The notes under the pieces are model-generated. The model was not told the DNA's origin. It did not search any database and was given only the letters and a program-made list of their open reading frames with translations. A stretch of 44,996 nt of DNA. Source: Pseudomonadota bacterium. Lineage in GTDB: Bacteria; Myxococcota_A; UBA9042. Position numbers and translations under genes: made by a program. Position 1 is the stretch's first letter. Every line of letters begins with the position of its first letter. The stretch lies in the NCBI GenBank assembly GCA_005792545.1, contig SXRM01000157.1, positions 1 to 44,996 of the forward strand, given 5' to 3'. Below are positions 13,151-44,996 of this stretch, piece by piece.

Positions 13151-13349
13151 AGGGACTCCGGGTGGCCGCAAGGGCCGGGGCTGTGGACGGTTGAGCGGCG
13201 GTTTATCTGACAGCTTGGGTCAAGGCAGGGCAGGTCAGGTATGCCCGCCCCTCGGCAGCCGCAGGCGTCGGCAACAGGTAACGCTTGCCAGCAGGACGCG
13301 ACGGCGCTTAGGCTCGCTGGCCCGCGAGGCGGCCAACGGAGGACCATCG

Positions 13350-14639: not shown

Positions 14640-14790
14640 CACGAGCGCCGTTGGCGCCAGGCTTGCGCCGACCAGGGCCGCCGAAATCTGCCGCGCGGCG
14701 CGTTGTTGCGTCGCTTGACGCCGCCCTTGGGCCGGGCGATGGTTGGCCGCGGTGCTTCTGGGACGACAGCTTTGCCAAGGAGCGTGGGAG

Positions 14791-18358: not shown

Positions 18359-19053
18359 TGGTGCGGGTGGTTGCCAGCAGCGTGCGCGGCCCGGCGCATG
18401 TGCGGCACGGCCTGCCGGGCCAGGATGCCTGGCTTGCCGTCGCTGAGGACCGCGCGTCGCTGGCGGTAGTGTGTGACGGCGTTGGGAGTTGCCCTCACGC
18501 CGGGCAGGGCTCGCGTGCAGCAACTTTGGCCGTACGCGACGCCTGGCGGCTGTGGCGCCGTTCGCCTGTGGGTGCGGTCGAGGACTTGATCCGCCTCGTC
18601 GAGGTCGCATGGCGGCTTCGCCTTGGCCGAGTGCCCACTGACGGTGCGGCAACCACGTGCTTGTCGTATGCTGAAGACGGTCACGGCAGGGCGGTCTTGA
18701 TCCAACTTGGCGATGGCATCGCCGTACGGCGGAGGAACGATGGCGAAGTCGCGGTCCACCCAGCCCGCAGCTTGGCCTTTGGGCTCACTTACGCTCTTGG
18801 TGCGCCCCACGCCCTCACCGATTGGTCGTGGTCGGCGATAGAGCCACTTGCAGCGGGCGAGGTGCTTTTGCTAGCTACCGACGGCGTCGCTGAGGATATT
18901 GCACTGGACCGCATTGGCGACCTTGCGGCCTGGGTGGTAAGCGAACTCGGCCCTCTTCGGCGGCCAGGATTCGCCCTCGCCAAAGAACTGCGCGCCTGGC
19001 CCGTCCCTCACCACCGGGACGACAAGACGCTCCTGGTCATGTGGAAGCCATGA
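18358..19053 (+). CDS. PP2C-type serine/threonine phosphatase (TerY-P triad)
   Basis: The 231-residue phosphatase has the PP2C metal motifs: HGLPGQDAW, VVCDGVGSCPHAG with Asp40, LLLATDGVAED and HRDDKTLLV near the end. This set is expected to bind two metal ions and dephosphorylate Ser/Thr. It is short, being the domain alone. The start overlaps the vWA stop, and its own stop overlaps the kinase ATG (ATGA). It probably reverses the action of the kinase encoded next. Confidence 0.85.
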   Translation: MVRVVASSVRGPAHVRHGLPGQDAWLAVAEDRASLAVVCDGVGSCPHAGQGSRAATLAVRDAWRLWRRSPVGAVEDLIRLVEVAWRLRLGRVPTDGAATTCLSYAEDGHGRAVLIQLGDGIAVRRRNDGEVAVHPARSLAFGLTYALGAPHALTDWSWSAIEPLAAGEVLLLATDGVAEDIALDRIGDLAAWVVSELGPLRRPGFALAKELRAWPVPHHRDDKTLLVMWKP

Positions 19054-25406: not shown

Positions 25407-25422
25407 ACGAGGATCGCCACCC

Positions 25423-30150: not shown

Positions 30151-31869
30151 TCAGGGCTCGCCCCATATGCTGAAATCGACGTCTTCAAGCTCAGTCAAGG
30201 TCGCGCGAACCAACGTGATGTAGGCCGTGGCCAGGTCAACGCCAAATCCAAGGCCAATCTTGTGGACTGCGCCGCCTTTCCTCACAACCCGCAAGCCGCC
30301 GCCGTTCAGGTCGATGCCGGCGCGCAGGAGGGCCGGGCGCAAGTCGACCACCGTGCGCCGCTGACGGCCCTCATGGACGAGTCCGTTGCGCAGGTCGCGC
30401 ACAGAGTCTTCACTTTTGGGCTGGGTGCGCATGTCGATGGCCTCGGCGAACGAAAACGCGGCGCGGGCAAGTCCCGCACCCCACCACTTGCGCTGTGACC
30501 AGGTCCACAGGTCGTCAAGTCTGGCTTCTCTAGCCGACGGCGCGCGCTGGCCAGTCATGCGCGGTGCGACGGCCACACGGGGAGCGACGGCCAACAGGAT
30601 GGGGTCGTGCACGGCATCGGCCATAGTGCACAACAATTGCGTAACCTCCACCGCGTCGCCAGCCCGCGCAGCCGCCTCAGCGCAGAGCGCGGTCGTCAGC
30701 CAACCGCGTACAGCGCTGTCCACCTTGGCGGCCAAATGCGGCGTCACCGACCAGGCACCGGCGACGACGTCCACCACGCCCGGGCGCTGGCCACGCAGCT
30801 TGGGGTCAGTCGGCACCGTTGCCACAGTCTCACCCTGCAACCAGGCGCTGCCGGCTTGCAGTTCGGTGACCCAGCGCTCAGGGTCGGGAATTTTGGCTTG
30901 CATGGCCCGTGCCAAGAGCGCAGCGTCGGCGAAGCGGCCGCACCCAATCAAGTCGCGTGCCGCGGCACGCTGGCGAATGCTCTCCGCGGGCCGCAAACCC
31001 GGGTACGGCCGTGTGGCGGCATCCGAGCCTCCGCGGTCGCGCCGCTGCACCAGAATTTCGGCTTCGGGCAAGCGAAACGAGAGTGCATCGGCTACGGCCT
31101 CGAACATGGCGGGAATGCCACCGTCGTGGTGAAAGTACACACGCCGCGGCGGTATTGGCCACGCGGACACGGCCCTGAGCGCCGCGTCGACGCGTTGCAA
31201 CATCGCGGGCCGAGTCAGGCTGACTTGCTTGGCGTCGCCATATCGCAGGTCGGCGTACTCGGCGCCTTGCAGCAGGTTCAGCCACATGCAGCGGCCTGGC
31301 TGCACTTCGCTGGGCTCACCAATCGCATTGTCAGCAGCCACAAGACCAGTCTGGTTCTCAAACCACATGGCGATGATCTCGCCTGCTGCGTGTGGTTCGC
31401 CAGCGACCATGCGCGACCAGTCGACGTCTGCTGCCCCAGTTGCGTCGCGCGACGTTTGGCAAAGCAGCGCGCCGACGAGCTGTTCCGTCGGGTTGGCTGC
31501 GGCCGGGTGAAAGCGCCCAGCAGCCTGGGCGAGTAGACGCGGGTACACGGCCAAGCGCCCACCGCTCGACCGGGCCAGAGTCGGCAGCGGACGCAAGTGA
31601 CCACCCGTTGGGGCGACCGCAATTGCCCCATCTTTGACTACGACTTCGCAGTCGCTGCGCTCCTGCATGGGGCCGGCGGCCGGTTCGAGACCGAGATCCG
31701 TGAACTCGCGCACCAGGCAATCATGAACGGCCCGCGTCGCCGGTTTGCGCACTGGTGCGCTGGCGAGCGATTGGGTCCCGTCGTCGCCGACGACCTCGAC
31801 GACCAATTGCAGGTCGGTCTGTCCAAGCGTTGCGACAAAAAGGACTGGAATCTTTGCATTGCCCGTCAT
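30151..31869 (-). CDS. Csm6/Csx1-like CARF-HEPN protein
   Basis: The 572-residue protein has an N-terminal CARF-type Rossmann start (VLFVATLGQTDLQLVVEVV) and a later strand-loop RRVYFHHDGGIPAMFEAVADAL that suits the CARF ligand-binding loop. The C-terminal half is helical with DSVRDLRNGLVHEG: R494-N-x3-H499 is the classic R-N-x3-H of HEPN ribonucleases. Csm6 and Csx1 are ring-oligoadenylate-activated RNases of type III CRISPR systems. ATG 31869 overlaps the Cas6 stop (ATGA), so it is the third gene of the Card1-like/Cas6 operon. Length suits the family. The specific name is not fixed because the CARF part is divergent. Confidence 0.75.
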   Translation of the reverse strand: MTGNAKIPVLFVATLGQTDLQLVVEVVGDDGTQSLASAPVRKPATRAVHDCLVREFTDLGLEPAAGPMQERSDCEVVVKDGAIAVAPTGGHLRPLPTLARSSGGRLAVYPRLLAQAAGRFHPAAANPTEQLVGALLCQTSRDATGAADVDWSRMVAGEPHAAGEIIAMWFENQTGLVAADNAIGEPSEVQPGRCMWLNLLQGAEYADLRYGDAKQVSLTRPAMLQRVDAALRAVSAWPIPPRRVYFHHDGGIPAMFEAVADALSFRLPEAEILVQRRDRGGSDAATRPYPGLRPAESIRQRAAARDLIGCGRFADAALLARAMQAKIPDPERWVTELQAGSAWLQGETVATVPTDPKLRGQRPGVVDVVAGAWSVTPHLAAKVDSAVRGWLTTALCAEAAARAGDAVEVTQLLCTMADAVHDPILLAVAPRVAVAPRMTGQRAPSAREARLDDLWTWSQRKWWGAGLARAAFSFAEAIDMRTQPKSEDSVRDLRNGLVHEGRQRRTVVDLRPALLRAGIDLNGGGLRVVRKGGAVHKIGLGFGVDLATAYITLVRATLTELEDVDFSIWGEP

Positions 31870-32990
31870 GTGCCCTCGGAGGTTGCCAAGTCGATTGGGG
31901 CAGCGTAGCGATGCAGAAGTTCAGTCGTGCGGGTGTGCAGGTCGACAATGCGGTCTCGCAATTCCACCTCCAGGGCGGCTTGCGGCTGCGCCACCGCCGC
32001 CTTCGGCACCGCCGGCAACACCTGGCAATGCCCAAGCCCATACGAAGTGTGTCGACCCAGGCCGCACAATTCGGCCAGGGCAAACAGCGGCGCCCACGGA
32101 CCTAACTCGCCGGACAGCATCAAGCTGCCGATCAACCCACCGCCGACGATGCGATCGCCACTGCGGGTGGAGCGCTGGGCGAGTTGCACGGGCACGGTAT
32201 TGATGGCGTCCACACGCAGCGGATGGCGCTCGGCCAGGTCACCGATTGCATCGTGGATGGCCGATTCCACGCAGCGCTCGGCCCCTACGCTGCGCAAGGC
32301 TGCCTCAGTGATGCCCACGCGCACCGCCATGGCCGCCAGCAAACCGACCGGGTCGAGATCGCCAGCGATGCGCGGGTGCAGGCCAGCGCCCGGCAACTCG
32401 GTGGCCGTCTGCATTACCAATGTTGCCCTGCGCACGCCAAACCAAGCTTGTGCAGCCTGGCTGCCGATCGCGGCCATGGTTGTCGGTGTCTCGGCCCGTA
32501 CCCCGGCAACCTCGAAGCGGACAGTCTGCGGGTGCAGGCCATCTGGTGTGCTCGCGTCCAAGCCGATCGCACCCATGTCGCCGATGGCACCGAGCAGGCC
32601 GGCCAGTTCAGCCACGGGCCGTTCGCCCCACACGGCCACCGGCAGCACAAACTCGCCTTGAACCAGCCGCGCGGTCAGTCCCCGGTGATCGAGTCGAAAC
32701 GCGGGCGGAATGTCCTCCCAGGTGCCAGACAGGCCGGGCTTGTACCATAGGGCGTAGCGACATGGATCGCGAAACTGGCAGCGCCGTTGCTTTTCGCACT
32801 GGCTGCCCGCGAACCCGCGCGGGCTGCAGGTCGCCTTGGCCAGAGCCATGCCGAGCGCGCCGCGCAAAACCATGCCGGCCGCGACCGTGGGCCGACCGCG
32901 CTCATCGAACGCAAATGGCGCACTGGCCCGACACAGCACGCGCGCCTGGACGACAGGCATCCGAAACAGCGGCAAGTCGAGCAAGGCCAT
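31866..32990 (-). CDS. cas6: Cas6-type CRISPR RNA-processing endoribonuclease
   Basis: This 374-residue RAMP-fold protein shows two Cas6 features: the cysteine-rich segment CSPRGFAGSQCEKQRRCQF followed by DPCRYALWY, and the C-terminal Gly-rich loop LAELCGLGRHTSYGLGHCQV. Cas6 cuts the CRISPR transcript within repeats to leave an 8-nt 5' handle. It lies between the Card1-like and Csm6-like genes and overlaps the latter. ATG 32990 is chosen; a TTG at 33026 overlapping the upstream stop is possible. The catalytic residue could not be assigned with confidence. It would process both nearby arrays, whose repeats differ only in a hairpin loop. Confidence 0.8.
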   Translation of the reverse strand: MALLDLPLFRMPVVQARVLCRASAPFAFDERGRPTVAAGMVLRGALGMALAKATCSPRGFAGSQCEKQRRCQFRDPCRYALWYKPGLSGTWEDIPPAFRLDHRGLTARLVQGEFVLPVAVWGERPVAELAGLLGAIGDMGAIGLDASTPDGLHPQTVRFEVAGVRAETPTTMAAIGSQAAQAWFGVRRATLVMQTATELPGAGLHPRIAGDLDPVGLLAAMAVRVGITEAALRSVGAERCVESAIHDAIGDLAERHPLRVDAINTVPVQLAQRSTRSGDRIVGGGLIGSLMLSGELGPWAPLFALAELCGLGRHTSYGLGHCQVLPAVPKAAVAQPQAALEVELRDRIVDLHTRTTELLHRYAAPIDLATSEGT

Positions 32991-33022
32991 GCGGCAGACA
33001 GTCGTCGGAATTGCGGCGGACG

Positions 33023-34681
33023 TCAAGCCGCGCGGCGGGCCAGCGTGTCGATGACGTTTGGCAACTGGTCCAGGCCGATGAGTTTCTGGTCGCGAGTTCG
33101 CCCCGCTTCAGCCGCATAGTTGAACCAGGTCGGCAGGTCGGAGATCCAACTGTCGTTCAGTTCGCTGACTCGCCTATTGTCGCCGGACTGCAGCACTTCG
33201 ATCTCGGACTGCAACATGGGGTAGACAATGTAGTACGCGCTACCGGCGCCACCGTGGTCACGCAGTTGCTTGATGCGCGATTCAATATCCTTGTGGGTGG
33301 CGGTGCTGTGGTGGGTCTTGGCTTCGACCACGGCCAAATCGCCGGTCCATGCCAGGGCCACTGCATCGAATTCGGCCAACTTCGCTCTGGCTTTGGTGCT
33401 ATGCAGATGCCCGTTTTGCCAGACACGGACGCTGCCACCGCTGCCGCCTGGCGCTGCGTCCAAGGCAGCGGCCACGCACAGTTCAAGAAGGACACTTGGC
33501 TCGTGCTGCGCCAGCACGCCGGCGATCTCCGGGTCGCCGCCAATCCCTACTTCCGCCAGAACCTCTGGCAGAATCCCAGCGTACAAGGCGGCCATTGTCA
33601 AGCCGGGCGCTCCCGATGGTGCTGGCCCTTTCAGCGCGGCATAGAGACGCTTGCTCATGGACTCTTGCAGGACTTTGCGTGCATGGACGATTCCCTTGGC
33701 CTGTTCGGGCGCTACGCGCACCGGCCCTGCACGTCGCGCTGCAGCGGCCGCCAAACTATGCAATTGGCCGTCTAAGCCGTTGAGCACAGTCCGCAGCCCT
33801 TTGAGGCCAGGGTCGCGGCTCACCGCAGCCAGCCAGAACGCGTTGCTGTCATCGCCGCAGTGGAACGCCGCCACAGCATCGCGAACCGCCTGCTCGATGA
33901 CGGCGCGGTCAAGCGCCAGGTTGGCGAGCAAGTCGGCGACGTGCGCGCCGAACTCCAGGATCGCGGTCTCGATTGCAGCAGCGGCCTGGCCCGCGACAAG
34001 TCGCCGACGGCAGTGCCACGCTTGATGGACAGCATACCGCGAATGAAATAGTGCCCTCAGGGGCGCATGCCGCACCATGGCGTGCAGGAGGTGCAAAAGC
34101 TGCGGCGCTAAACGGACAGCAGGATCTTGCGCTTGAATGGTCGCGGATCCGGACAGCGAAAAGCGCCGCTCAAGCGCCCGATCGTCCAACGCAAACCGAA
34201 TCGGCAATACCTTCGTCGGCCCCGCAGGCAGCAACGGCACTACCAGCACCTGAACTTTGTCTGGATCAGCGCAGGCCGCCGCCAGGTGGTGGCCGACCTC
34301 GTCGACGACGCGCTGCACTGCCGCCTGCGTCAGCATCCGGTGCAGGCCGAGGCCCCGCGTCGTGTCGACCACGACCCGCGCGGGAGGTTGGCATGCGGCG
34401 AGGGCCGCGCGCAGGCGCGCCTCAATCAAGGCGGAGACGTCGGCGCCGTTTGCGACCTCGCTCAAGCTGGGAAGGTCGCAGCGCGTGACCTCGCGCACGA
34501 TGTCCTCGCGCCGAAAGCGCTCCAGCACGCCGTCGTCGTTGCCCTTGCGCCTACCGTCGGGCGTGGTCAGATGCAGCACGCGCGGCGGGCGCAGGGCCTG
34601 CAAAAGCTTTGCAAGCACGATTGGCTCTGTAGCTGACTGCACGACGAGCAGGTCGCAGGCGGCTTTGGTGTTGTCGGACAT
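33023..34681 (-). CDS. CARF-nuclease of Card1/Can2 type
   Basis: The 552-residue protein has an N-terminal Rossmann/CARF-like part (about 1-160: DLLVVQSATEPIVLAKLLQA, then ARVVVDTTRGLGLHRMLTQA). A helical middle leads to a C-terminal PD-(D/E)xK nuclease at about 430-480: EFDAVALAWTGDLAVVEAK, where E, D and the E-x-K triad line up as in Card1/Can2 enzymes. Those are cA4-activated nucleases of type III systems that cut DNA and RNA. The start ATG 34681 has GGAG seven bases upstream; the open frame further upstream is CRISPR array. It lies 66 bp downstream of array 1 in the direction of array transcription, so read-through may express it. Confidence 0.75.
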   Translation of the reverse strand: MSDNTKAACDLLVVQSATEPIVLAKLLQALRPPRVLHLTTPDGRRKGNDDGVLERFRREDIVREVTRCDLPSLSEVANGADVSALIEARLRAALAACQPPARVVVDTTRGLGLHRMLTQAAVQRVVDEVGHHLAAACADPDKVQVLVVPLLPAGPTKVLPIRFALDDRALERRFSLSGSATIQAQDPAVRLAPQLLHLLHAMVRHAPLRALFHSRYAVHQAWHCRRRLVAGQAAAAIETAILEFGAHVADLLANLALDRAVIEQAVRDAVAAFHCGDDSNAFWLAAVSRDPGLKGLRTVLNGLDGQLHSLAAAAARRAGPVRVAPEQAKGIVHARKVLQESMSKRLYAALKGPAPSGAPGLTMAALYAGILPEVLAEVGIGGDPEIAGVLAQHEPSVLLELCVAAALDAAPGGSGGSVRVWQNGHLHSTKARAKLAEFDAVALAWTGDLAVVEAKTHHSTATHKDIESRIKQLRDHGGAGSAYYIVYPMLQSEIEVLQSGDNRRVSELNDSWISDLPTWFNYAAEAGRTRDQKLIGLDQLPNVIDTLARRAA

Positions 34682-34746: not shown

Positions 34747-35203
34747 GTTGGCGAGCCGACCCCGAAACCGAGGCCAGGCGAACCTCGCTTCCGCAAGCGC
34801 CTCGTGACGGACGCGAAGTTTCGACCCGACCCCGAAACCGAGGCCAGGGCAACAACAAGTTGGACCTTCGCAAGTTGAAGGTTCAAGTTTCGACCCGACC
34901 CCGAAACCGAGGCCAGGGCAACTTTGACGGGGCAGTGGGTCCCGTCAAAATCCAGCCGTTTCGACCCGACCCCGAAACCGAGGCCAGGGCAACGAGACGA
35001 TCGGCGAAGTGTCGGAACACGTGTGTGGGTTTCGACCCGACCCCGAAACCGAGGCCAGGGCAACCAAAGACGGTGGCGCTGGCCGCCGCCGGCGGGGTTT
35101 CGACCCGACCCCGAAACCGAGGCCAGGGCAACCGGGGGACGAGGAAGGAAAGGGACGCTTCTATGCCGTTTCGACCCGACCCCGAAACCGAGGCCAGGGC
35201 AAC
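34747..35203 (-). CRISPR. CRISPR array 1: seven repeats, six spacers
   Basis: Repeats of 36 bp begin at 34818, 34887, 34958, 35029, 35097 and 35168; on the plus strand each starts GTTTCGACCCGACCCCG and ends CCAGGGCAAC. A degenerate 37-bp copy at 34747-34783 marks the trailer end. Spacers are 34, 33, 35, 35, 32 and 35 bp. The minus strand is the transcribed sense: the repeat then ends in GTCGAAAC, the usual 8-nt crRNA handle, and contains the hairpin CCTCG-GTTT-CGGGG. The leader is therefore on the right, and the array points towards the Card1-like/Cas6/Csm6-like operon. Confidence 0.97.
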
Positions 35204-35577: not shown

Positions 35578-35991
35578 ATGCCCGCCGAACCGACCCCGAC
35601 CCTTTTCGTTACGAACCTTGGCCAGACCGATGTGCAACTGGTCCTCGAAGACATCGATGGTCGACGTCAGGCGCGCAACATTCGCAAGGACAACCTACGC
35701 TGCGTCCACGACAGGCTTGTGCAGAAGCGCGCCGCCGACCAACTGCCTGTGGTGCTCGACCGCCGGAGTGAACCGCCAGCGCAGGGTGTGCAGCGACCAG
35801 CCGCCGACGACCCAGGCGCGGTGTCGCCCGACTAGATGCTGGCGGACTCGGGCGACGCTTGGCTATGGCAGCCAGGCGCGATCCTGAGAGTCAGCCGCGC
35901 GTTGGGCGTGCGCGTGGACGAAGTCTGGTGGGCAATTGTCGACCTGTGCACGAGCACGCGGCTTGATCCCGATACACCGGGATGGCGCTGA
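35578..35991 (+). pseudogene. Truncated CARF paralogue of the Csm6-like protein, interrupted by an amber stop
   Basis: The frame from ATG 35578 (GGAG upstream) encodes TLFVTNLGQTDVQLVLEDID, then LRCVHDRLVQKR. This closely parallels LFVATLGQTDLQLVVEVV and RAVHDCLVRE in the Csm6-like protein at 30151-31869. TAG at 35833-35835 ends an 85-residue product, and ATG follows immediately in the same frame. The next 51 codons (EVWWAIVDLCTSTRLDPDTP) still resemble the paralogue (QLVGALLCQTSRDATGAAD). The remaining two thirds, including HEPN, are absent. It may be a decaying duplicate, or a small CARF-only protein that binds the signal. Confidence 0.6.
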
Positions 35992-36009: not shown

Positions 36010-37614
36010 CTACTTGCCCTTGCGCCAGTTGGCGATTGCGTGCCCCGTGACACCCAGTTGCCGGCCGACCTCGGCGTCGGCCTTGATGGCCGCACAGCGG
36101 TCCAGGTAGTGGGTCTGCACCAATTCACGCGCGGTAGCCTTGAGCTCCTCAACGGTGGTGCCTTGCAGCGGCAGCGGCCGGTCGAAAAGCGCCAGGACCG
36201 CCAGCGTCTGCGGATCTGGGTGGAGCGCGACACCGGCCGAGGCCGCCGGCAAACTCGGTGGCGGCGCTGTTGGCAGGGAACCAAAGGACGCAAGAGCCGC
36301 GCTAACGTCTTCGGCCTGGATGATGCGGTCGCCACAGGCAAAGCGTAGGCGACGAACGACGAGCTTGAGTTGGCGCACGTTGCCTGGCCAATGGTAGGCG
36401 GTGAGCACTGACCACGCCGCAGCGGTCAGGTCCGCCTTCGCCGGTTGGGCCGCCTTGTCCAGCCTTTGCTTCCACAAGAACTTGAACAGCAGTTCGACGT
36501 CATCGCGCCCGCGCTCGCGCAGCGGTGGCAACACCAATTCGTGGGTGGCGATGCGGTAGTAGAGATCCTCGCGAAAAGTCCCCGCAGCGACCATGTCGAT
36601 GAGCGGCCGATGGGTGGCCGTGACGAGGCGGAAATTGGCAGGCACCCGGTGGCTAGCCCCAACCGGAGTCACCGCCTTGTCTTCCACTGCGCGCAACAGC
36701 TTGACTTGCAGACCGAGTGGCAAGTCGGCGATCTCGTCCAAGAACAGGGTGCCGTTGTGCGCAAGCGCGAGCTTGCCTGGCCGCGCGGCGACACCGGTGC
36801 CAGCACCTGCCACGGTGCCGAACAACTCGGCCTCGGCGAGTTCTGCCGGGATGGCACCACAGTTGACCGGCACAAACTGGCCGGCCCGACCGCTGGCGTA
36901 GTGAATCAGCTCAGCTACCGTTTCCTTGCCTGACCCGGACGGCCCCAGGATGACCACTTCGTCCATCAGCGGAGCCAGCCGCTCGGCCAAATCGTACACA
37001 CGTCGTGTCGCGGCATCGCGGGTCACCACACCGGCGGACTTGGTCTTCGTTGCGGTTTCGGCCTGGTACTTTGCGGCTTCTTCTGCGGAAATGACGCTGA
37101 GCGTCGCCTCCCTGCCAGTCGGCATCCAGCTGAGGCCCTTCGGTGCTGGCAAACGCTCGACGGCCTGCCGCGGCGTATCAGCGAGCCGGCCGACCCACAG
37201 CGGAAACGACCGGGCGAACCGCGTGCACGCCAGCAGCATCGCTGAGGTCATCGTCCACATGCCGCTCGACAGCCCCAACTCGACGCTGTCGTCGCGCCCC
37301 AAGCCGGTACAGACCTCGTCGAGAACGGTACACACCGCGGCAGCCAGGCTGTCGACTTCAAGGCGTGGCACATCGCTCACATCGCGCCAATCGAGCTGTC
37401 TGCCGCTGCCGGCCAAACGCTGCTTGAGCGTCTCACGGTTCTGCGCATCCAGTGGTTGCTTGTTGGGGGCACCATCATCGAGCACGACGACCTTGGTGAA
37501 CGGGCTGCCGTCGTCGCGCGCCACGGTCACGATATCTTGGATGGCACCGCGGCCTTCACTCGCCCGGTTCAGGTCGGTGCTGCCGAGCCAGGTCACCAGA
37601 ATTCGTCGTGGCAT
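36010..37614 (-). CDS. RtcR-like CARF-AAA+ sigma-54 activator
   Basis: The 534-residue protein has an N-terminal CARF domain (RRILVTWLGSTDLNRAS; ligand loop VELGLSSGMWTMTSAMLLA near 112-130) and a sigma-54 activator AAA+ domain. The latter shows Walker A ILGPSGSGKETVAEL (about 222), ELFGTVAGAGTGVAARPG (about 262), LFLDEIADLPLGLQVKLLRA (about 285) and FREDLYYRI. A Fis-like helix-turn-helix sits at the end (EVGRQLGVTGHAIANWRKGK). The layout is that of RtcR, whose CARF controls RNA-repair genes. The GAFTGA loop, which contacts sigma-54, reads GAGTGV here. ATG 37614 follows GAGGAG. It is the second gene after a membrane protein and faces two sigma-54 promoters at 38747-38979. Confidence 0.8.
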   Translation of the reverse strand: MPRRILVTWLGSTDLNRASEGRGAIQDIVTVARDDGSPFTKVVVLDDGAPNKQPLDAQNRETLKQRLAGSGRQLDWRDVSDVPRLEVDSLAAAVCTVLDEVCTGLGRDDSVELGLSSGMWTMTSAMLLACTRFARSFPLWVGRLADTPRQAVERLPAPKGLSWMPTGREATLSVISAEEAAKYQAETATKTKSAGVVTRDAATRRVYDLAERLAPLMDEVVILGPSGSGKETVAELIHYASGRAGQFVPVNCGAIPAELAEAELFGTVAGAGTGVAARPGKLALAHNGTLFLDEIADLPLGLQVKLLRAVEDKAVTPVGASHRVPANFRLVTATHRPLIDMVAAGTFREDLYYRIATHELVLPPLRERGRDDVELLFKFLWKQRLDKAAQPAKADLTAAAWSVLTAYHWPGNVRQLKLVVRRLRFACGDRIIQAEDVSAALASFGSLPTAPPPSLPAASAGVALHPDPQTLAVLALFDRPLPLQGTTVEELKATARELVQTHYLDRCAAIKADAEVGRQLGVTGHAIANWRKGK

Positions 37615-37668
37615 TTTGGGCTCCTCGCTGATGGGGACTGCTGAACTTGCACCGCTAGTGGGCGCAGG

Positions 37669-38670
37669 TTACCGCGATGCGGCGCGGAGGCCAACCTGAC
37701 GCAACCGGTCGGGCCGGCGCGGCACCCATCGGCACAGCGGTGCATTGTTGTCCATTGGTTGGAGCGTCAACTCGGTCGTTTTGCAACCAGGGCCCGCGTG
37801 CGCGCCAGCAAGGATGGATTGCGCAACGCGCGGCGACGAACACTGCCAGCTTACGCGCCACAATCCCTCGCCGCCGCTGCAATCAGGGGCGCCCGGCACG
37901 GCCTTGTCCACCAAGCGCCACCCCTGCAGGCTGGTGCTACCGAGCAAGTCTCGTCGTGCGGCCGCGGCAGACCCGCCGTGTGCCCCACTGACTTGCACCT
38001 GAATGCGACAGTGTTTGTCGAGAAGCCACTGCGAATCCCGGCGCAACCCCGGTTGGTTGCCGGACGCCTGACTGAGCGAACGCGTGATGAACGCCCGCCC
38101 CCTGCCACCAGCAAGCCGGGGCGCCGACACCAACACCACGCGCTCGCGCAGATGGGTATCACCATCAGCGGATAGATCGTACCAGCGAATTGCGGCGATC
38201 TCTCGGCCCTGGCAGCGCCGCGGGCCCAGGAGTTGCAAATCGCTGATATCGCTGTAAATCCGCCACTGAAGCGTGCGCTGGCCGTCGCGTACGCTGATGC
38301 GCATGCGTGGTAGCGCCGGGTCCAATTGCGCTTTGAGATCATGGGAACTCGGCGTAACAAGGACCGTCAGTCGCGCGCGCCCCAACGCTATCATATGCTT
38401 GGCCCTGACCTGCGTTGCAGCCCTGTCGTCGTCGGCGGCCCACGGCACCAGCACGGCAGGCGCGAGTTGGGCGAGGCGGACAGCCACACCGCTGGCCACG
38501 GGTTGAGGCAGAGGCTGTGGGCGGGGTTGAGCGGCCGCCTCGTCCGCGAAGACCGCGACCAGCAACGCCAGCAGGGCACAGCCGAGCGCCAGCAGCACGG
38601 CGCGACCGATGAGGTCCAGAAGGTCCGCAAGCGAAAACGCGGCACGTCGAGTTGGCTGCTGGCTGTTCAT
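37669..38670 (-). CDS. Hypothetical membrane-anchored or exported protein
   Basis: The 333-residue protein has one hydrophobic segment near the start (LLDLIGRAVLLALGCALLALL, about 14-36), then AAAQPRPQPLPQP, like a signal anchor followed by a proline linker. The rest is hydrophilic with at least six cysteines (RRCQGR, KHCRIQ, APDCSGG, VSWQCSS, GPGCKT, APLCRW), suggesting a disulphide-bonded periplasmic domain. ATG 38670 has GAGGAG upstream; an upstream frame extension is unlikely. It starts the operon that includes the CARF-AAA+ activator 54 bp downstream. A sigma-54 promoter (38747-38763) faces it. Family unknown. Confidence 0.65.
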   Translation of the reverse strand: MNSQQPTRRAAFSLADLLDLIGRAVLLALGCALLALLVAVFADEAAAQPRPQPLPQPVASGVAVRLAQLAPAVLVPWAADDDRAATQVRAKHMIALGRARLTVLVTPSSHDLKAQLDPALPRMRISVRDGQRTLQWRIYSDISDLQLLGPRRCQGREIAAIRWYDLSADGDTHLRERVVLVSAPRLAGGRGRAFITRSLSQASGNQPGLRRDSQWLLDKHCRIQVQVSGAHGGSAAAARRDLLGSTSLQGWRLVDKAVPGAPDCSGGEGLWRVSWQCSSPRVAQSILAGAHAGPGCKTTELTLQPMDNNAPLCRWVPRRPDRLRQVGLRAASR

Positions 38671-38746
38671 GGCTGGGCTCCTCGGCTTGCGGGTGTGGTT
38701 CGGCGTGGTCGGCCGGTATCCACGACCGGCGGCACCAGCAGAGCTG

Positions 38747-38763
38747 TGCAAGGGCCATGCCAG
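38747..38763 (-). promoter_or_regulatory. Sigma-54 promoter facing the membrane protein/CARF-AAA+ operon
   Basis: On the minus strand this reads CTGGCATGGCCCTTGCA. Against the sigma-54 consensus YTGGCACGrNNNTTGCW it has one mismatch (CACG to CATG), with the GG and GC doublets exactly 10 bp apart. Transcription would start near 38736, about 65 bases before ATG 38670. Confidence 0.7.
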
Positions 38764-38831
38764 CAAGCAGCGGCAATACCGGCAGCAGTTGCTGTCGCTG
38801 TTTGCGGCGGAAAGCCCGGCGAAGCCTCACT

Positions 38832-38899
38832 CGGTGCGAGGCCGAGGCTAGCGAACAGCTATTCCAATACGGAAGCAGCGTGCGGCATGGGTCGCACCG
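38832..38899. promoter_or_regulatory. Inverted CGGTGCGA pair between divergent sigma-54 promoters (candidate enhancer)
   Basis: CGGTGCGA at 38832-38839 recurs as its complement TCGCACCG at 38892-38899. Each copy is also part of a local dyad (CTCGG-N7-CCGAG, 38830-38846; GTGCG-N8-CGCAC, 38880-38897). The copies lie 64-69 bp from their nearer promoter, symmetrically. That is where upstream activator sites of sigma-54 promoters usually are. The CARF-AAA+ protein is the obvious candidate binder (inference). Confidence 0.5.
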
Positions 38900-38962
38900 T
38901 TTGCGTTGATCCGGCTAAGGTGTTTCGTATTTATTTCAATGTATTGACCTTCGTCATCTACC

Positions 38963-38979
38963 TTGGCACGGGGCTTGCA
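38963..38979 (+). promoter_or_regulatory. Sigma-54 promoter of the vWA/tubulin-like/SEDS-PBP operon
   Basis: TTGGCACGGGGCTTGCA is a full match to the sigma-54 consensus YTGGCACGrNNNTTGCW, with correct 10-bp GG-GC spacing. The expected start is near 38990, giving about 35 bases of leader before ATG 39025. Confidence 0.85.
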
Positions 38980-39024
38980 CGGTTCAGGGCGTAGCCGGCA
39001 CTTCCCGCTGGCGGTGGCCTGACT

Positions 39025-40095
39025 ATGCAAGCCCTTTCGACCCAAATCGCTGGCGCATGTGTGTCAGCCGGCCTGCTGCTCGCGCCGCACAATGTTGCCC
39101 ATGCGCAATTGGCGGTCGGCGTAGCAGACCCCGCGACGCCCGTTGCGGGCGACATCTTGGTGGGTATCGATGCATCTGTCAGCGCCAAGGCGGAGGTTCG
39201 CGCGTTCGCCAAAGCGGTGCGGCAACCTGGCAGCCTGGGCGACTGGCCCGTGACCGTTGTGCTGTTCGGCGTACGGACTCGCGTCTTGCACCGCGTGCCT
39301 GCGGGCGCTGGCAAAGCTGCCTTCGACCTGCTGGGCAAGCAGATTGCGAGCCACGCAGGCAAGGACCGTCGGTCTGACTTTGGCGAGCTTGCGGCCTGGC
39401 TGCGGCTGGCCCCGACGCCGCAGTTGGTGGTCCTGGTGAGCGACGGCGAGCCCAGCGTGCAGGCGGGGGCGACGCTCTTGGATGGTGCCGGCGTTGTGGC
39501 TGAACTGCTCAAGCGCGGTGTTCCACACTGCATCATTTCTGGGCCTACGACACCAGTTGTCCTACGCCGATGTGTTGCCCAAGCGCGCGGTTTAGCCAAG
39601 GCGCCGGCGCTTGCAGCACCGGCGACAGCCACGCCAACCGTGGCAGTCCAGCCTGCGGCCGCTGCAATGGCACTGCCGTCGTCGCCCACCGTCGTCGCTG
39701 CATCTGCGCCGTCTGCGCGACCGCAACCGCGCACGGTCGGCGCCGCCCGCGACTACACCGCCGCGGGCGGGGTCATTGCTGCAATCGTCCTGTTGATAGC
39801 AGGTCGGCTTGGGCAACTGCGCTGGCGTCGACAACGCCGCAAGCCGGTAGCCATTGTGGTCTGGAAGGGCGTGGAGCTTGCATTGTCGCCCGCCAACCCG
39901 CTGCTGGAACTCGGAGGCAACCGCCGCATCGAGGCGCGTGACGGCAAAGTGCTCGCCATCAACGCCTTGACGCCTGATGGCGCAGCGACATGTCCAACGC
40001 AGCAAGTCACGGTGCCCGGCGTGGTTCGGGTCGACGCCACCCGCACTGTGCTCGTGCGTGCGCCGCGCGCGCCGATGGAGGCCAACAATGTCTAG
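39025..40095 (+). CDS. Exported, membrane-anchored vWA protein
   Basis: The 356-residue protein has a signal peptide with likely cleavage after HNVAHA. A vWA domain (about 40-180) has DASVS as MIDAS start (VGIDASVSAKAEV) and VLVSDGEPSVQ as the later Asp motif. An Ala/Pro-rich linker (about 195-240) precedes a transmembrane helix (GGVIAAIVLLIAGRLG, about 250-270), a basic stop-transfer RWRRQRRK and a cytoplasmic domain of about 85 residues. So the vWA faces the periplasm and the tail faces the cytoplasm, where the tubulin-like protein would be. No strong ribosome site is visible. The stop overlaps the next gene by eight bases. Confidence 0.75.
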   Translation: MQALSTQIAGACVSAGLLLAPHNVAHAQLAVGVADPATPVAGDILVGIDASVSAKAEVRAFAKAVRQPGSLGDWPVTVVLFGVRTRVLHRVPAGAGKAAFDLLGKQIASHAGKDRRSDFGELAAWLRLAPTPQLVVLVSDGEPSVQAGATLLDGAGVVAELLKRGVPHCIISGPTTPVVLRRCVAQARGLAKAPALAAPATATPTVAVQPAAAAMALPSSPTVVAASAPSARPQPRTVGAARDYTAAGGVIAAIVLLIAGRLGQLRWRRQRRKPVAIVVWKGVELALSPANPLLELGGNRRIEARDGKVLAINALTPDGAATCPTQQVTVPGVVRVDATRTVLVRAPRAPMEANNV

Positions 40096-41839
40096 CGGCC
40101 ATACCCTGTTCCTCACCCTGGGCACCAGCGCCATCACGGCGTCGCAAACCATGCGTCGCGACGCAGTCATCCGCGTGGACAGCGTTGCCGGTCGCGCGGA
40201 CGTTGTGGTGGGCGGCGGCTCGACCGGTCCAGCGGGCAGCGTTGGCCTGGGCGGCATGGCGACAGCGGTCGACACGGCAGCATGGCATCGCGCAGCACCT
40301 GCCCTGCGTACGCGCATTGGGCGTCTGCTGCACACGACTTCAGCGCGCGAGCTATGGCTGATGTGTGGCACGGGCGCGACCGCCGGCAGCGGAGTCGGGC
40401 CGGTGGCCAACGCGGCAGCCGAGGTGATCGCGCTGCGCGGGCAGCCGACTGCGCTCAATCTGCTGGTTGTCGCTCCAATCTGGACAGGTCTGTCCGAGGC
40501 GGCCGACGCTGCCCGCTTTGAGAATTTTGCAGTCATCATGCAAGAAATCAAGTGGTTTCGCAGCGTGGTCGTGCTGTGCAGTGCGGACTCTGACTGCGTT
40601 GCCGGGGACCTGCAGGTGATGGCCCAGTTGTTGGCAGCCAAGTCTGGCGCGATTCAGCAGGCGCTGGTCGACGCCGAAGTCGCCGCCGCACTGCGCACCC
40701 CAAAGGCTGGACCGTTTGTGCACGTTGCCAAGGTCGGTCTGACCACGACCAGCGCGGGCCTTGAGGCCGCGGCCGAAAAACAGGCCCGTGCTGCTTGTCA
40801 GTCGGCTGTCGCAGGTGCTGGCGTTTTGGATGCGCAGGCCGAACTGGATCTGCTGCTGACAGAAAACCTCGGCGACGCTGCCGAGGCGCTGTTGCAGTTG
40901 CCGGACGACCCACGTTTCGCCCGCGAAGCTGCACGGGCTTTGCGCGCTGGCGGCCAGGTGACAGCAAGCGTGGTCGCAGAGGCGGCCCGGCGCGTCATCG
41001 AAGCACTCGACCAGGACGCGCTGACCATGGGCGCGGCGGCAGTGGCGGTGCGCTTGGACGCATTGGCGTTGGCGTGTGTTGCGCTAGTCGGCCGCCAACC
41101 GAGCGCGCCGGTTGCCGCAGCGCCCGTGGCATCCGGTTCCGTCAAGCGCTTGCTTCGCACGCTTTTCACCGCGCTTGAAGATGTGGATGGTCGCGCGGAG
41201 GACCAGACGTCGGCCGGCGGCGACGACGATCTGCGCGCAGCGCTGGCTTGCCTACACCCGCGCCTCGCCCGCGCACTCGAGCCGCAAGTTCGGCGACTGG
41301 CTAGCCGCGCGGCGAGCACGGCACAGGGCGACCGCGGCAGTCGCATGGCCCCCCTGCCGGCGTCAACCGCGCTGTCGGTGGCGGAGCTTGAGCCTGCGGA
41401 CGAGCCTTGCCTGATGCTACCAGACGGATTTGCGGCCCTCGACCTGGTGCAACGCCGGCGCGTCGTGCGTTCGGCCCTGGCTGAAGCGCGGGCAATTCGG
41501 ATGCCAGCACCGGCCCCCAATGCGCTTCATCGCGTCCTCCGTGGCGTCGATCTGGCCACTTACCTGGTGCGTGGCGCCAGCACAATGGGTTCGCTGGTCG
41601 CCGTCCACGCCGACCCAGACGGAATCGCCCGCGTGCAGGGGCGGCTGCGCAACCAGCCAGTGAAATTGGTGGGGCTGCGCGCGACCGATCGGACGACCGT
41701 GCGGGTGGCCAGAATCGAGATGTCCGTGCCGTTGCGGGATGTGCCGGCGTGCACCGCTGCCGCTGCAGCGCTTGCAGCGCTCAAGACGTCGCATGGAACA
41801 ACCACAACTGAACCGGCGAGGCAATCGCAATCATGTTGA
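40088..41839 (+). CDS. Tubulin/FtsZ-like protein
   Basis: The 583-residue protein has N-terminal features of the tubulin/FtsZ GTPase fold. The first strand is TLFLTLGTSAI. A T4-type glycine loop LWLMCGTGATAGSGVGPVA (about 89-107) parallels FtsZ 'GGGTGTGAAPVVA'. Then come LLVVAPIWTGLSEAADAARF (as in 'VVTMPFSFEG...A') and VVVLCSADSDCV (as in 'LIVIPN'). The T4 loop is not canonical, so GTP binding is uncertain. The C-terminal about 330 residues are helical and unknown. ATG 40088 has GGAGG upstream. It is encoded between a membrane vWA protein and a SEDS-PBP fusion, a setting that supports a cytoskeletal or division role. Confidence 0.5.
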   Translation: MSSGHTLFLTLGTSAITASQTMRRDAVIRVDSVAGRADVVVGGGSTGPAGSVGLGGMATAVDTAAWHRAAPALRTRIGRLLHTTSARELWLMCGTGATAGSGVGPVANAAAEVIALRGQPTALNLLVVAPIWTGLSEAADAARFENFAVIMQEIKWFRSVVVLCSADSDCVAGDLQVMAQLLAAKSGAIQQALVDAEVAAALRTPKAGPFVHVAKVGLTTTSAGLEAAAEKQARAACQSAVAGAGVLDAQAELDLLLTENLGDAAEALLQLPDDPRFAREAARALRAGGQVTASVVAEAARRVIEALDQDALTMGAAAVAVRLDALALACVALVGRQPSAPVAAAPVASGSVKRLLRTLFTALEDVDGRAEDQTSAGGDDDLRAALACLHPRLARALEPQVRRLASRAASTAQGDRGSRMAPLPASTALSVAELEPADEPCLMLPDGFAALDLVQRRRVVRSALAEARAIRMPAPAPNALHRVLRGVDLATYLVRGASTMGSLVAVHADPDGIARVQGRLRNQPVKLVGLRATDRTTVRVARIEMSVPLRDVPACTAAAAALAALKTSHGTTTTEPARQSQSC

Positions 41840-44172
41840 TTCTCTTCGCCGTGACCTCAGCGGCGCTGCTGGCTGCATCGGTGGTGCCGGGCACAGCGCC
41901 ATCCTGGGAATTCGCACTGACCTTGGTGGCGACCGCCGCATTCGCACACCAGGCGCTTGCGGGTCCGCTGGTCGGTCGATCCGTTGCCGCCGGGTGGTTG
42001 GTCATGCCAGCCGCGTCGCTGCTGGTGCACCGGCTTGCTGGCGTCCCGATGGGAATGCAAGCGGCGGCGTTCGTCGGCGCGGCAGCGCTGCTTTCGGCCA
42101 CGGCGTCAGCCAAGCTCACTTGGCCGAGTGACGCGGCGTTACAACCACCCTGGGTGGCCTGGGCGCTGGTCGCAATTGCGACGGCCCTTGCTGCGGCGGG
42201 TCTCCAAAAGTTCGGAATGGGCCTGCGGCCTGCGGAAGGACTGCGCCTCTGTGCGCCGTTGCTGGCGGTGGCGCTGACCTGGCAACGGATCGGCTGGCCT
42301 GCGCCACTTGCGTGCATTGCGGTCTTCGGTGCCTCCGCCAAATGGGGCGCCGGTCTTGGCGAGGGTGCTGTGTTTTCCGCAAGTTTAGTGGCGGCGCTGT
42401 GGGTGCTGGGCCGCAACGGGCGCAATGCGCTGCTGTGGTTGGCGGCGGGGCTTGTGGTGTTCGCTGCGTGCGCGGCGCTTGCCAGAGGCGACAAGGACTT
42501 GCGCCGGTTTTCTGCGTGGGCAACACCAGTACCTACGGCGTGCGATGACGCAAGCGCCGGAATCCACGTCAGGACCGACCAGACCCTGGTACGCGAAATG
42601 CTCCTGCACGGCGCAGTGGCAGCGCGCTGGAAACCCCAGGCGGCTGAAAAACTCAAGGTTCGGCAAGTCGACGACGAAGTGCCGGTGACCCTCATCGCTT
42701 GCCTTGGTGTGGTGCCGACAGTATTGCTGCTGTTGGCGCTCGCCCGGCTGCCAGCAGGGCTGCTGCGGTCGAAGCGCGCGGTTGGCCGAGCGGCCGGTGC
42801 GGCTTTGGCGGTGCACTGGCTTTTGGGTTTGCTGACCGACGTCGGCGTGCTGCCGTTTACCGGGAGCGGAATGCCAATCTTGGGTCACGGCACGCTGGCC
42901 CTGTCGGCCATGGCTGTGCTGTCGGCCATCGCCGTGGCGCCAGTGCGCGAGGATGCGCCCGAGCTGCTGCCTGACTTGCAGCGGCCGGCCGTCTTGCGGT
43001 GGCTTCTGCCGGCTACGGTGGTCGTGGCCTTCGCGCTGGTCGCCCACCGCGCCATCGGCGTCGACCCACATGATCGGGTCTTGGTGTGCGAGTTGATGAT
43101 GCCAAATCGGCGCATTGGTAAGTTAGCCGGTGCCGTACCCGGCCCGCTCCTCAACACAGCAGGGCAACAAACGACGAGCGAATTGGCCACCTGGGCGGGC
43201 AGTCAACGCCAACATCGGGCTGACAGGTTCGACCTTGCCGGCGCAATTGCCCATCCATGGCGGCGATTCTTGCGGGCTGAGCCCATCGCGCCACGACCCC
43301 TGCAAACCACCGAAGTGCCATCGTTTCAGCAGGCGGCGGTGGCAGTGGTCGCTGGGCTACCAGACCTCGCCGCCGCACTGGCGCTTGACGCAACAACCGC
43401 CACCGTCCTTGGCGCAGCCTCGAACCGCCATGGCGATCTGTCGAACGCCATTCGCGGCAGCTTCGACATCGGTTCCGCAGGCAAGGTGATGGCGGTCGCG
43501 GGCGCTGCGGGCGTAGGGGGCGTGTGTAATTGTTCGGGAAGGCTGTCGACGCCTGCGGGCGTGGTGCACTGCCACCACCACGGACCCATGACGGTTGAGA
43601 CGACTCTGGCGCGGTCATGTAACGTCTGTGCTGTGCAAATGGCGACGCAGCACGCGGCCGCGACCGCGCGTGTGGCCGACGCGATTGGCCTTACGTTCAA
43701 TCCGGCGAACCCGCAGCGGCTCGTGCTGGGCGCGGCGACGGCGCTGCCGGAACTCGCGCGACTGTATGCGGCCATCGCAGTGGGGGATGGCCGGGTCCGC
43801 AAGGCGCGCTATGTGACAACCGACCCGGTGGACGAGGGGCGGATTGCGTTTTTGCCCAGCGAAGTCCCGGCAATCGCCAAAGGGTTGCGGATGGCGCTTG
43901 CGCCTGGTGGCACTTGCAGCGCCTTGCCAACGGCGATTGCAGGCACGACGCTGGAAGGGGCGAAAAGCGGAACCGCCATGCTGGCGGGTCGGGATCGGGG
44001 TACATTGGTCGTGCTGGCGCGTATGGCCGGCGGGCGCAAGGTCCTGTTTTTGCTGACCGCACCTGTGGACAGCACGGCAGGCCGTGAACTGAGCGCACAG
44101 ATGCGGCGGTTCATCGCCTGCGCCAGTGGCGGCGTGGTCGGCAAGGCCACGGCCAAGGTCGCCGGACCGTAA
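41833..44172 (+). CDS. SEDS glycosyltransferase fused to a penicillin-binding transpeptidase
   Basis: The 779-residue protein joins two halves of a peptidoglycan synthase. Residues about 1-400 are polytopic like FtsW/RodA: VDDEVPVTLIACLG (Asp280/281) parallels the conserved 'TDFIFAVIGEE' stretch, and LLTDVGVLPFTGSGMPILGHG parallels 'GLLPvTGLPLPFLSYGGSS'. After one more membrane helix, a periplasmic transpeptidase follows with all three motifs: S548-A-G-K551 (DIGSAGKVMAV), S595-C-N597 (ARSCNVCAVQMA) and K711-S-G-T714. Normally FtsW and FtsI are separate proteins. The start overlaps the tubulin-like gene by seven bases, so expression is coupled. Confidence 0.8.
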   Translation: MLILFAVTSAALLAASVVPGTAPSWEFALTLVATAAFAHQALAGPLVGRSVAAGWLVMPAASLLVHRLAGVPMGMQAAAFVGAAALLSATASAKLTWPSDAALQPPWVAWALVAIATALAAAGLQKFGMGLRPAEGLRLCAPLLAVALTWQRIGWPAPLACIAVFGASAKWGAGLGEGAVFSASLVAALWVLGRNGRNALLWLAAGLVVFAACAALARGDKDLRRFSAWATPVPTACDDASAGIHVRTDQTLVREMLLHGAVAARWKPQAAEKLKVRQVDDEVPVTLIACLGVVPTVLLLLALARLPAGLLRSKRAVGRAAGAALAVHWLLGLLTDVGVLPFTGSGMPILGHGTLALSAMAVLSAIAVAPVREDAPELLPDLQRPAVLRWLLPATVVVAFALVAHRAIGVDPHDRVLVCELMMPNRRIGKLAGAVPGPLLNTAGQQTTSELATWAGSQRQHRADRFDLAGAIAHPWRRFLRAEPIAPRPLQTTEVPSFQQAAVAVVAGLPDLAAALALDATTATVLGAASNRHGDLSNAIRGSFDIGSAGKVMAVAGAAGVGGVCNCSGRLSTPAGVVHCHHHGPMTVETTLARSCNVCAVQMATQHAAATARVADAIGLTFNPANPQRLVLGAATALPELARLYAAIAVGDGRVRKARYVTTDPVDEGRIAFLPSEVPAIAKGLRMALAPGGTCSALPTAIAGTTLEGAKSGTAMLAGRDRGTLVVLARMAGGRKVLFLLTAPVDSTAGRELSAQMRRFIACASGGVVGKATAKVAGP

Positions 44173-44183
44173 CGGGAGGCCGC

Positions 44184-44450
44184 ATGGTGTTCAAGGTCGT
44201 CATTGCTGTGGCCGCGCTGGCGGCGATCGCCGTGCTCGCCCTGGTTGCTGAGGCGCTGCGCAAGGCAATGGTGGCCTGGTTGACGGCATCCAAGGCGTCG
44301 CGGCAGACAGCCTTTTCAGGCCCCGGCACGACGGACCGGTTTGGTCGTGGTGGGCGGGGCAAGGTGTTGCCGTTCCGCGGTCGGGGTACCCAGGCACCGC
44401 GGGGCAGCAGGACGGGTGGCGAAGGGCAAGGGTCCAAAGCACGACGATAG
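44184..44450 (+). CDS. Small membrane protein
   Basis: An 88-residue protein with one N-terminal transmembrane helix (VVIAVAALAAIAVLALVAEAL) and a basic, glycine-rich tail (GRGGRGKVLPFRGRGTQAPR). GGGAGG lies six bases before the ATG, 11 bp after the SEDS-PBP stop, so it ends the operon. The tail is low-complexity and could bind nucleic acid or acidic lipids. It has no family assignment. Confidence 0.55.
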   Translation: MVFKVVIAVAALAAIAVLALVAEALRKAMVAWLTASKASRQTAFSGPGTTDRFGRGGRGKVLPFRGRGTQAPRGSRTGGEGQGSKARR

Positions 44451-44681: not shown

Positions 44682-44996
44682 GTTTCGACCCGACCCCGAA
44701 AACGAGGCCAGGGCAACTTAACCGGATTTTCCAGAATGGTCGCGGTCGCCGTTTCGACCCGACCCCGAAAACGAGGCCAGGGCAACCAGCAAATCTTAAA
44801 GTTGGCGGAGATTTGCAAGTTTCGACCCGACCCCGAAAACGAGGCCAGGGCAACCTTCGCAAGTGGAAGTTTGAGATCAAGATGAATGAGTTTCGACCCG
44901 ACCCCGAAAACGAGGCCAGGGCAACCTCGACGGCGCGACGATCGAGTTCCTCCCGGCGGAGTTTCGACCCGACCCCGAAAACGAGGCCAGGGCAAC
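44682..44996 (-). CRISPR. CRISPR array 2: at least five repeats, runs off the right edge
   Basis: Repeats begin at 44682, 44751, 44819, 44890 and 44961. Spacers are 33, 32, 35 and 35 bp. The repeat equals that of array 1 except plus-strand position 21 (C to A), so GAAACCGAGG becomes GAAAACGAGG in every copy. In the transcribed (minus) sense only the hairpin loop changes (GTTT to TTTT) and the stem is kept, so one Cas6 could process both. The sense is inferred from the GTCGAAAC end; the leader would lie beyond the window. The 231 bp before the array (44451-44681) show no convincing gene. Confidence 0.97.

Follow-up and report, generated by a model that had tools for sequence, protein, structure and literature searches.

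A CARF sigma-54 activator beside a predicted wall-synthesis operon, a candidate defense payload, in a Myxococcota_A genome

RtcR and RtcR-like sigma-54 activators are the closest described relatives of the regulator considered here. Passages of earlier work place RtcR homologs at the head of defense superoperons with type I restriction-modification (R-M) and Druantia III (PMC11090510) and RtcR-like CARF genes next to R-M systems (PMC4012209), and the payloads named in such passages are R-M, CoCoNuT, Druantia III, and Shield. We analyzed a window of 44,996 nucleotides (G000:C83:1-44996) from a Myxococcota_A genome (G000; 7.03 Mb in 435 contigs, 77.75% complete), in which a gene of this kind, P0004, is separated by a gene, P0005, and a divergent intergenic region from four coupled genes, P0006 to P0009. 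P0004 resembles the described activators (PMC4012209, PMC9650030, PMC11090510) in its domain order, family score, defense-island setting, and adjoining sigma-54 sites. As far as those passages go, it differs in its GAGTGV contact loop and in the divergent promoters that place the regulator gene in one predicted unit, and its operon is none of the named payloads. With two outward sigma-54 matches, P0004 is predicted to switch on what is likely an inducible defense payload, in which a SEDS-transpeptidase wall synthase is joined by a tubulin-like protein and a vWA-type membrane protein, a reading to which we give a probability of roughly 0.4. The operon is a candidate defense payload because the regulator family associates with defense genes. 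The features concerned are the following.

36010..37614, minus strand: P0004, CARF-AAA+-helix-turn-helix (HTH) sigma-54 activator of the RtcR_PspF2 type (PADLOC, Pfam, ortholog in G002)
37669..38670, minus strand: P0005, probable single-pass membrane protein (start taken as the ATG at 38670)
38747..38763, minus strand: putative sigma-54 (-24/-12) promoter, pattern match CTGGCATGGCCCTTGCA, towards P0005 and P0004
38963..38979, plus strand: putative sigma-54 (-24/-12) promoter, pattern match TTGGCACGGGGCTTGCA, towards the four-gene operon
39025..40095, plus strand: P0006, likely vWA-type protein (motifs resembling a metal ion-dependent adhesion site [MIDAS], hydropathy)
40088..41839, plus strand: P0007/P0010, likely tubulin/FtsZ-like protein of 583 residues (motifs, weak fold hint)
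41833..44172, plus strand: P0008, penicillin-binding transpeptidase domain behind a multi-transmembrane part, likely a SEDS glycosyltransferase (PF00905, motifs, hydropathy)
44184..44450, plus strand: P0009, small protein with one N-terminal transmembrane segment (open reading frame [ORF], hydropathy)

Residues 4 to 443 of P0004 matched the PADLOC model PDLC01995 (RtcR_PspF2, CARF_AAA_HTH) at 5e-91 and 304 bits, and Pfam recognized Sigma54_activat (1.5e-51) and the AAA+ and lid regions. The order CARF-AAA+-HTH is present in this single protein, the C-terminal segment having been aligned by eye to the HTH region of its relatives. By its sequence, P0004 is an RtcR-type CARF-AAA+-HTH sigma-54 activator, and the CARF regulator gene called in a first-pass annotation of this DNA is real. 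The only close ortholog found, in one of five other members of the genus (G002:C57), shares 69% identity over residues 3 to 383 and is cut by a contig end; a protein search with the CARF part of P0004 returned the window's own protein only. P0005, just upstream and in the same orientation, has one strong hydrophobic segment and a Shine-Dalgarno-like GAGGAG preceding its ATG, and it gave no Pfam, NCBIfam, or PADLOC match. At the limit used (E ≤ 0.1), PADLOC found no described anti-phage family among P0005 to P0009.

The intergenic region between P0005 and P0006 holds two sigma-54 matches that face outwards. The rightward one (38963-38979) is the sole zero-mismatch match to TTGGCACN5TTGCW in the window, in agreement with the sigma-54 promoter that the first-pass annotation had placed beside the CARF regulator, and the leftward one (38747-38763), with two mismatches to this pattern, comes in addition to it. 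Loose matches to the same pattern are uninformative, as 12 were found with up to two mismatches and 8.93 were expected. A further pattern, YTGGCAYGN4TTGCW, had two exact matches in 45 kb, which are the two divergent-region sites (0.03 expected; none of 100 shuffles had two), but it was chosen after the first scan, so that this figure flatters the leftward site. We therefore regard the rightward match as the firm putative promoter and the leftward one as somewhat less so. The inverted repeats between the promoters have no common center, and an enhancer site there is not claimed. A gene for RpoN is present elsewhere in G000 (PF04552, 1.5e-47).

The relatives of P0004 were taken from 377 sampled genomes of its phylum, in which RtcR_PspF2 genes were ranked by profile score; four candidates were scored per genome, so that the family counts are lower bounds. 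The 16 best-scoring genes (L034 to L049), taken with two flanks of at most about 10 kb each and covering 270 kb in total, form a first tier, and 20 further loci picked from the same ranking form a second, from which at least G267, G295, and G193, whose matches also spanned the CARF part, were left out. Neighborhoods were classified for defense genes in the first tier, where recognized defense genes adjoin the regulator or lie within about 3.5 kb of it in 14 of the 16 loci.

L034, L035, L036, L037, L040, L043, L047, and L048: type I R-M near the regulator
L039, L044, and L045: MkoA and a kinase gene near the regulator, with a PP2C match in L039 and L044
L046: oligonucleotide cyclase and E1-E2 near the regulator
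L038: DruH near the regulator
L042: HmaA/HmaB near the regulator

The matched families here are MkoA, Cyclase, E1-E2, HmaA, and HmaB, which we take to stand for the systems Mokosh, CBASS, and Hma. No defense gene was matched in L041, whose regulator lies at a contig end, or in L049. A 2623-residue ORF (L049, 10831-18702) adjoins the latter regulator and has no PADLOC match; it may be a further novel payload.

Sigma-54-like sites were also concentrated at these regulators. With the score threshold of 7.5 of 9.5 that we quote for both tiers, the 270 kb of the first tier contain 16 sites, of which 12 are no more than 400 bp from a regulator end, and in fact within 134 bp, against 0.73 expected; the distances are approximate, since regulator ends were set by our own ORFs or by the extent of the profile match. 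These sites belong to 10 of the 16 loci. The enrichment held at thresholds of 8.5, 8.0, 7.5, and 7.0 (7, 10, 12, and 13 near sites versus 0.46, 0.64, 0.73, and 1.15 expected), and stricter patterns gave sites near fewer regulators. In the second tier, 8 of 20 sites were near a regulator (0.88 expected), in 8 of the 20 loci; the site count for loci with short flanks overlaps this tier and was not summed with it. All 20 regulator-near sites of both tiers point away from the regulator, and 18 of the 36 regulators have one. One site faces the defense-gene side in nine of the ten first-tier loci with a near site, and in L042 the site faces the other side. L040 (G000:C6) is a second CARF sigma-54 activator in G000 itself, and there an HsdR-HsdM-HsdS operon is directly preceded by an exact sigma-54 site.

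Given the outward sigma-54 matches in the common intergenic region, the sites near 18 of 36 relatives, and the defense genes in 14 of 16 neighborhoods, P0004 probably controls the four-gene operon, as the first-pass annotation had supposed. The family also suggests a search rule, by which an outward sigma-54 site at an RtcR_PspF2 gene would mark the adjacent operon as a likely defense cassette.

The genes P0006 to P0009 overlap or nearly abut, P0006 and P0007 sharing ATGTCTAG and P0007 and P0008 sharing ATGTTGA, which upholds the earlier description of a coupled four-gene operon. The transpeptidase domain of P0008 is a solid prediction, with a Pfam PF00905 match at 3e-6 and the motifs S548AGK, S595CN, and K711SG in order. 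About nine hydrophobic segments precede it, and along them SEDS-like motifs occur in order: RPAEGLRL at residue 132, GLGEGAV at 174, QVDDEVP at 278 (before the next hydrophobic segment), and LPFTGSGMPILGHG at 340, the last set by hhalign in register with FtsW-type sequences. P0006 has a signal-like N terminus (by eye), MIDAS-like DASVS (49) and VSDGEPS (138), and one transmembrane segment near residues 240 to 263. In P0007, whose gene start was taken as 40088 and not 39977, we noted GLGGMATA (53), CGTGATAGSGVGP (93), and a hydrophobic segment at 316 to 334; hhalign set GATAGSGVGP, the candidate T4 GTP-binding loop, in register with GGGTGTGAAP of FtsZ, a result equaled by 79 of 100 shuffles. 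The motifs of P0007 and P0008 and their expected order were judged from general knowledge of these families. P0009 matched no Pfam family at its cut-off.

Structure prediction had been proposed as a check in the first-pass annotation. A low-confidence model of P0007 (predicted local distance difference test score, 43) had tubulin-sized chains from microtubule or gamma-tubulin-complex entries in its first 14 Foldseek rows (E 0.08 to 0.22), rows that are not independent, as the library is rich in tubulin chains; a second fold search included CetZ among matches mixed with TIM barrels. The low-confidence model of the SEDS part of P0008 gave no fold match. From the ordered motifs and, for P0007, the weak fold hint, the tubulin-like nature of P0007 and the SEDS nature of P0008 are likely.

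Two kinds of described machinery bear comparison with these products. SEDS-class B penicillin-binding protein (PBP) wall synthases are represented by FtsW-FtsI and RodA-PBP2. Like them, P0008 has a polytopic membrane part followed by a transpeptidase domain in which all three motifs are present; it differs in being one fused polypeptide whose SEDS part is below detection and which is linked to a defense-type regulator. G000 has two PF01098 (FtsW/RodA/SpoVE) genes besides, and the P0008 copy would therefore be accessory. The FtsZl1/Tubulin_2 systems, as described in part of PMC2875224, share with the operon a vWA-type membrane protein adjoining a divergent tubulin-like protein. Two FtsZl1 (PF13809) genes are present in G000 (L161, G000:C311; L162, G000:C114). 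In contrast to FtsZl1, P0007 has no PF13809 match and is 583 residues long, compared with 1057 to 1313 residues in 14 of 16 FtsZl1 ORFs. A SEDS match was found in none of 18 FtsZl1 neighborhoods, whereas the P0007 operon has a likely SEDS part; the FtsZl1 neighbors in some loci are FHA, weak vWA, DEAD/MZB, and transglutaminase-type proteins.

If P0004 acts as proposed, an infection-linked ligand would relieve repression by its CARF domain, and cyclic-phosphate RNA ends, which have been proposed for RtcR, would be a likelier ligand than cyclic oligoadenylate. The AAA+ ring would then open sigma-54 polymerase at both promoters, the levels of P0004 and P0005 would rise, and the operon would be expressed. 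The vWA-type protein might link a tubulin-like filament with the SEDS-PBP enzyme, and that enzyme might lay septal or patch peptidoglycan, leading to growth arrest or to a wall hardened against phage-driven lysis. The payload is best read as a predicted uncharacterized defense cassette with a wall synthase, and the window also carries Cas6, CARF-HEPN, CARF-PDDEXK, and a Mokosh-like module. The fuller claim, that this is a new anti-phage system in which, on infection, a CARF-sigma-54 switch would set up a dedicated divisome of vWA-type anchor, tubulin-like filament, and fused SEDS-PBP synthase that seals, septates, or armors the wall, with no nucleic acid destroyed and no pore made, we regard as doubtful. 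In most known cases, the response triggered by infection cleaves nucleic acids, uses up metabolites, breaks down proteins, or disrupts membranes. If the proposal were true, a switch that stands beside restriction, MkoA, CBASS-type, Druantia, or Hma genes in relatives would here command a wall- and cytoskeleton-like operon, which would make envelope building a defense output. Among the literature matches listed, no title or abstract opening described such a CRISPR-linked or anti-phage tubulin-like/SEDS wall system, and in the passages seen that join CARF, RtcR, FtsZ, and CRISPR, FtsZ concerns rare effectors of other systems.

Several observations weigh against this proposal. The sigma-54 contact loop of P0004 is GAGTGV, and that of the G002 ortholog is GAGTQT, while 9 of 14 aligned relatives have GAFTGA and the rest have GSFTGA, GAATGV, GAFSGA, GVATGT, or GAYTGS; judged by this altered loop, P0004 may be a weak or changed activator. 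An altered loop need not abolish function, because relatives with GAATGV (L009) and GVATGT (L013) still adjoin sigma-54-like sites (L039, L044). P0004 is also divergent, at 304 bits versus 534 to 654 for the 16 first-tier regulators and no more than 37% identity to those loci, and its association with defense is therefore indirect, by family only. No sigma-54-like site lies just upstream of the G002 ortholog. Genes for bacterial enhancer-binding proteins (bEBPs) are generally near such sites (the 67 kb surrounding 18 bEBP matches, which include the G000:C6 CARF regulator, contained 10 sites), so that the enrichment points to use of adjacent sigma-54 sites by the RtcR_PspF2 family, not to use by it alone. 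No operon protein was matched in the neighborhoods of the 36 relatives, and the operon appears to be an orphan of one genome. Among the domain assignments of the first-pass annotation, the transpeptidase stood, and vWA, tubulin/FtsZ, and SEDS had no Pfam match, PF01098 and PF13809 included, at a limit of E 10, with filters that remove most matches above about 0.1. In controls with block shuffles that preserve composition, 347 of 998, 80 of 300, and 15 of 100 shuffles scored as well as the SEDS alignments, and 223 of 300 and 79 of 100 as well as the FtsZ ones. The vWA call for P0006, made by motifs, is likely. FtsZl1 aligned to P0007 by hhalign at E 0.13 to 0.16, and 19 of 100 shuffles did as well.

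The orphan status comes from several searches. Protein searches with P0007 and P0008 returned the window's own protein only, among about 8,000 candidates scored for each, scoring being limited to those that shared the most words. In 89 genomes, P0008 matched itself and two short stretches (E 4.6e-4 and 8.9e-4), and in 282 genomes P0007 matched itself and nine short stretches (E 3.8e-4 to 0.004), which we took as chance. P0008 was absent from searches of five other genus members, and neither P0007 nor P0008 was found in G002. A plasmid search gave no match for P0006, P0008, or P0010, a PDB sequence search with P0006, P0007/P0010, and P0008 gave nothing relevant, and genome-contig and viral-contig searches with P0008 gave no relative.

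Of the other explanations, the one that survives best is that this is an ordinary envelope-stress or developmental operon under a sigma-54 activator and that its place in a defense island is incidental, which we consider somewhat doubtful. Sigma-54 activators abound in the phylum, a first look having given tens of candidates in many of its genomes; stress commonly targets wall synthesis; and the two further PF01098 genes of G000 mark the operon copy as accessory. However, the regulator family lies near known defense genes in 14 of 16 loci, and searches of the five other genus members did not find P0008, as would be expected for a conserved developmental operon.

It is rather unlikely that the domain reading itself is wrong and that the operon products, with no filament-forming tubulin or SEDS enzyme among them, form a membrane complex of effector or sensor type centered on a transpeptidase-like domain. 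PF00905 is the only significant domain in the operon, the SEDS and tubulin profiles fail the shuffle controls, the low-confidence SEDS-part model has no fold match, and the hydrophobic segment of P0007 (316-334) would suit such a complex. The motifs of P0007 and P0008 in their expected order, the tubulin-complex and CetZ fold matches of P0007, and the hydrophobic segments ahead of the P0008 transpeptidase part nevertheless argue for the domains as called.

The last alternative concerns the clustered regularly interspaced short palindromic repeats (CRISPR) on both sides of the region and the genes next to them.

30151..31869, minus strand: P0001, CARF_m10 CARF-HEPN protein (PADLOC 2.6e-28)
31866..33026, minus strand: P0002, Cas6 (Pfam 4.9e-6, PADLOC 2.7e-20)
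33023..34681, minus strand: P0003, CARF_PDDEXK-type protein (PADLOC 1.8e-5, residues 494-573 of the longer ORF only; start taken as ATG 34681)
34748..35203, minus strand: CRISPR array 1, six exact repeats and one degenerate left-end repeat (strand read from the degenerate end and the GTCGAAAC repeat end)
44682..44996, minus strand: CRISPR array 2, five repeats, truncated at the contig end (strand as array 1)

Array 1 lies to the left of P0004 and array 2 to the right of the operon, so that the arrays flank the region as first described, and both are of one repeat family, all six exact repeats of array 1 being one base off all five repeats of array 2. Insertion of the operon into a single array was considered and dropped, since the two have different fixed repeat variants and were taken as separate. 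The window resembles type III CRISPR CARF effectors and regulators in its CARF domain, one-family arrays, and nearby CARF-HEPN and CARF-PDDEXK genes, and it differs in that the CARF of P0004 is RtcR-type, no Cas10 was found in G000, and a wall operon transcribed through sigma-54 is the predicted output.

On recognizing its target, a type III complex might make cyclic oligoadenylate that binds the CARF domain of P0004, the operon being a slow envelope effector beside the CARF-HEPN and CARF-PDDEXK nucleases, as in the CRISPR control envisaged by the first-pass annotation, but we find this improbable, and a CRISPR trigger of P0004 unlikely, on the following evidence. The position of P0004 and the operon between two one-family arrays, with Cas6 and two CARF effectors nearby, speaks for it, as do two degenerate repeats of the window's family about 0.8 kb upstream of the G002 ortholog and eight RAMP matches in that sister genome. 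Against it, G000, 77.75% complete and with the window contig ending inside array 2, gave no Cas10-palm (PF22335) or RAMP (PF03787) match, in searches that can miss divergent members (PF09455 missed P0001 too). A basic residue is usual after CARF strand 4, according to a passage of PMC4012209, and the corresponding segment of P0004, placed by eye, is SSGMWTM, with no K or R; relatives have SPGTPAM or similar. Escherichia coli RtcR is not activated by cyclic oligoadenylate, as stated in part of PMC9650030. CRISPR-like arrays lie near none of the 16 first-tier and 2 of the 20 second-tier relatives in a simple 22-mer spacing scan.

From that scan, CRISPR-like repeat arrays lie in L218 near 14000 and in L234 near 12000, about 3 kb and 1.5 kb, respectively, from the RtcR_PspF2 regulators. 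In the window, a short part of an ORF at 35578-35835 (plus strand) is like the N terminus of P0001 by eye (FVTNLGQTDVQLVLE versus FVATLGQTDLQLVVE) and may be the remnant of a second copy.

Other genes of the window lie to the left of these. At 18346-23944 (plus strand), PP2C, protein kinase, and MkoA-like helicase genes (MkoA 9.4e-81) are 35 to 49% identical to the modules of L039 and L044 near RtcR_PspF2 regulators; this module has no exact sigma-54 match and no adjoining CARF regulator. A 1072-residue protein at 24880-28098 (plus strand) matched PADLOC PDC-M26A (5.8e-36), and a deaminase-like protein is encoded at 13191-14639 (plus strand; PF14421, 2.8e-42). The product of 14743-17469 (plus strand) has a protein kinase domain and, at the N terminus, a FYVE-type zinc finger match that falls slightly short of the model cut-off. 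Two DDE transposase genes, at 4882-6102 (plus strand) and 11091-12389 (minus strand), are possible signs of a mobile island.

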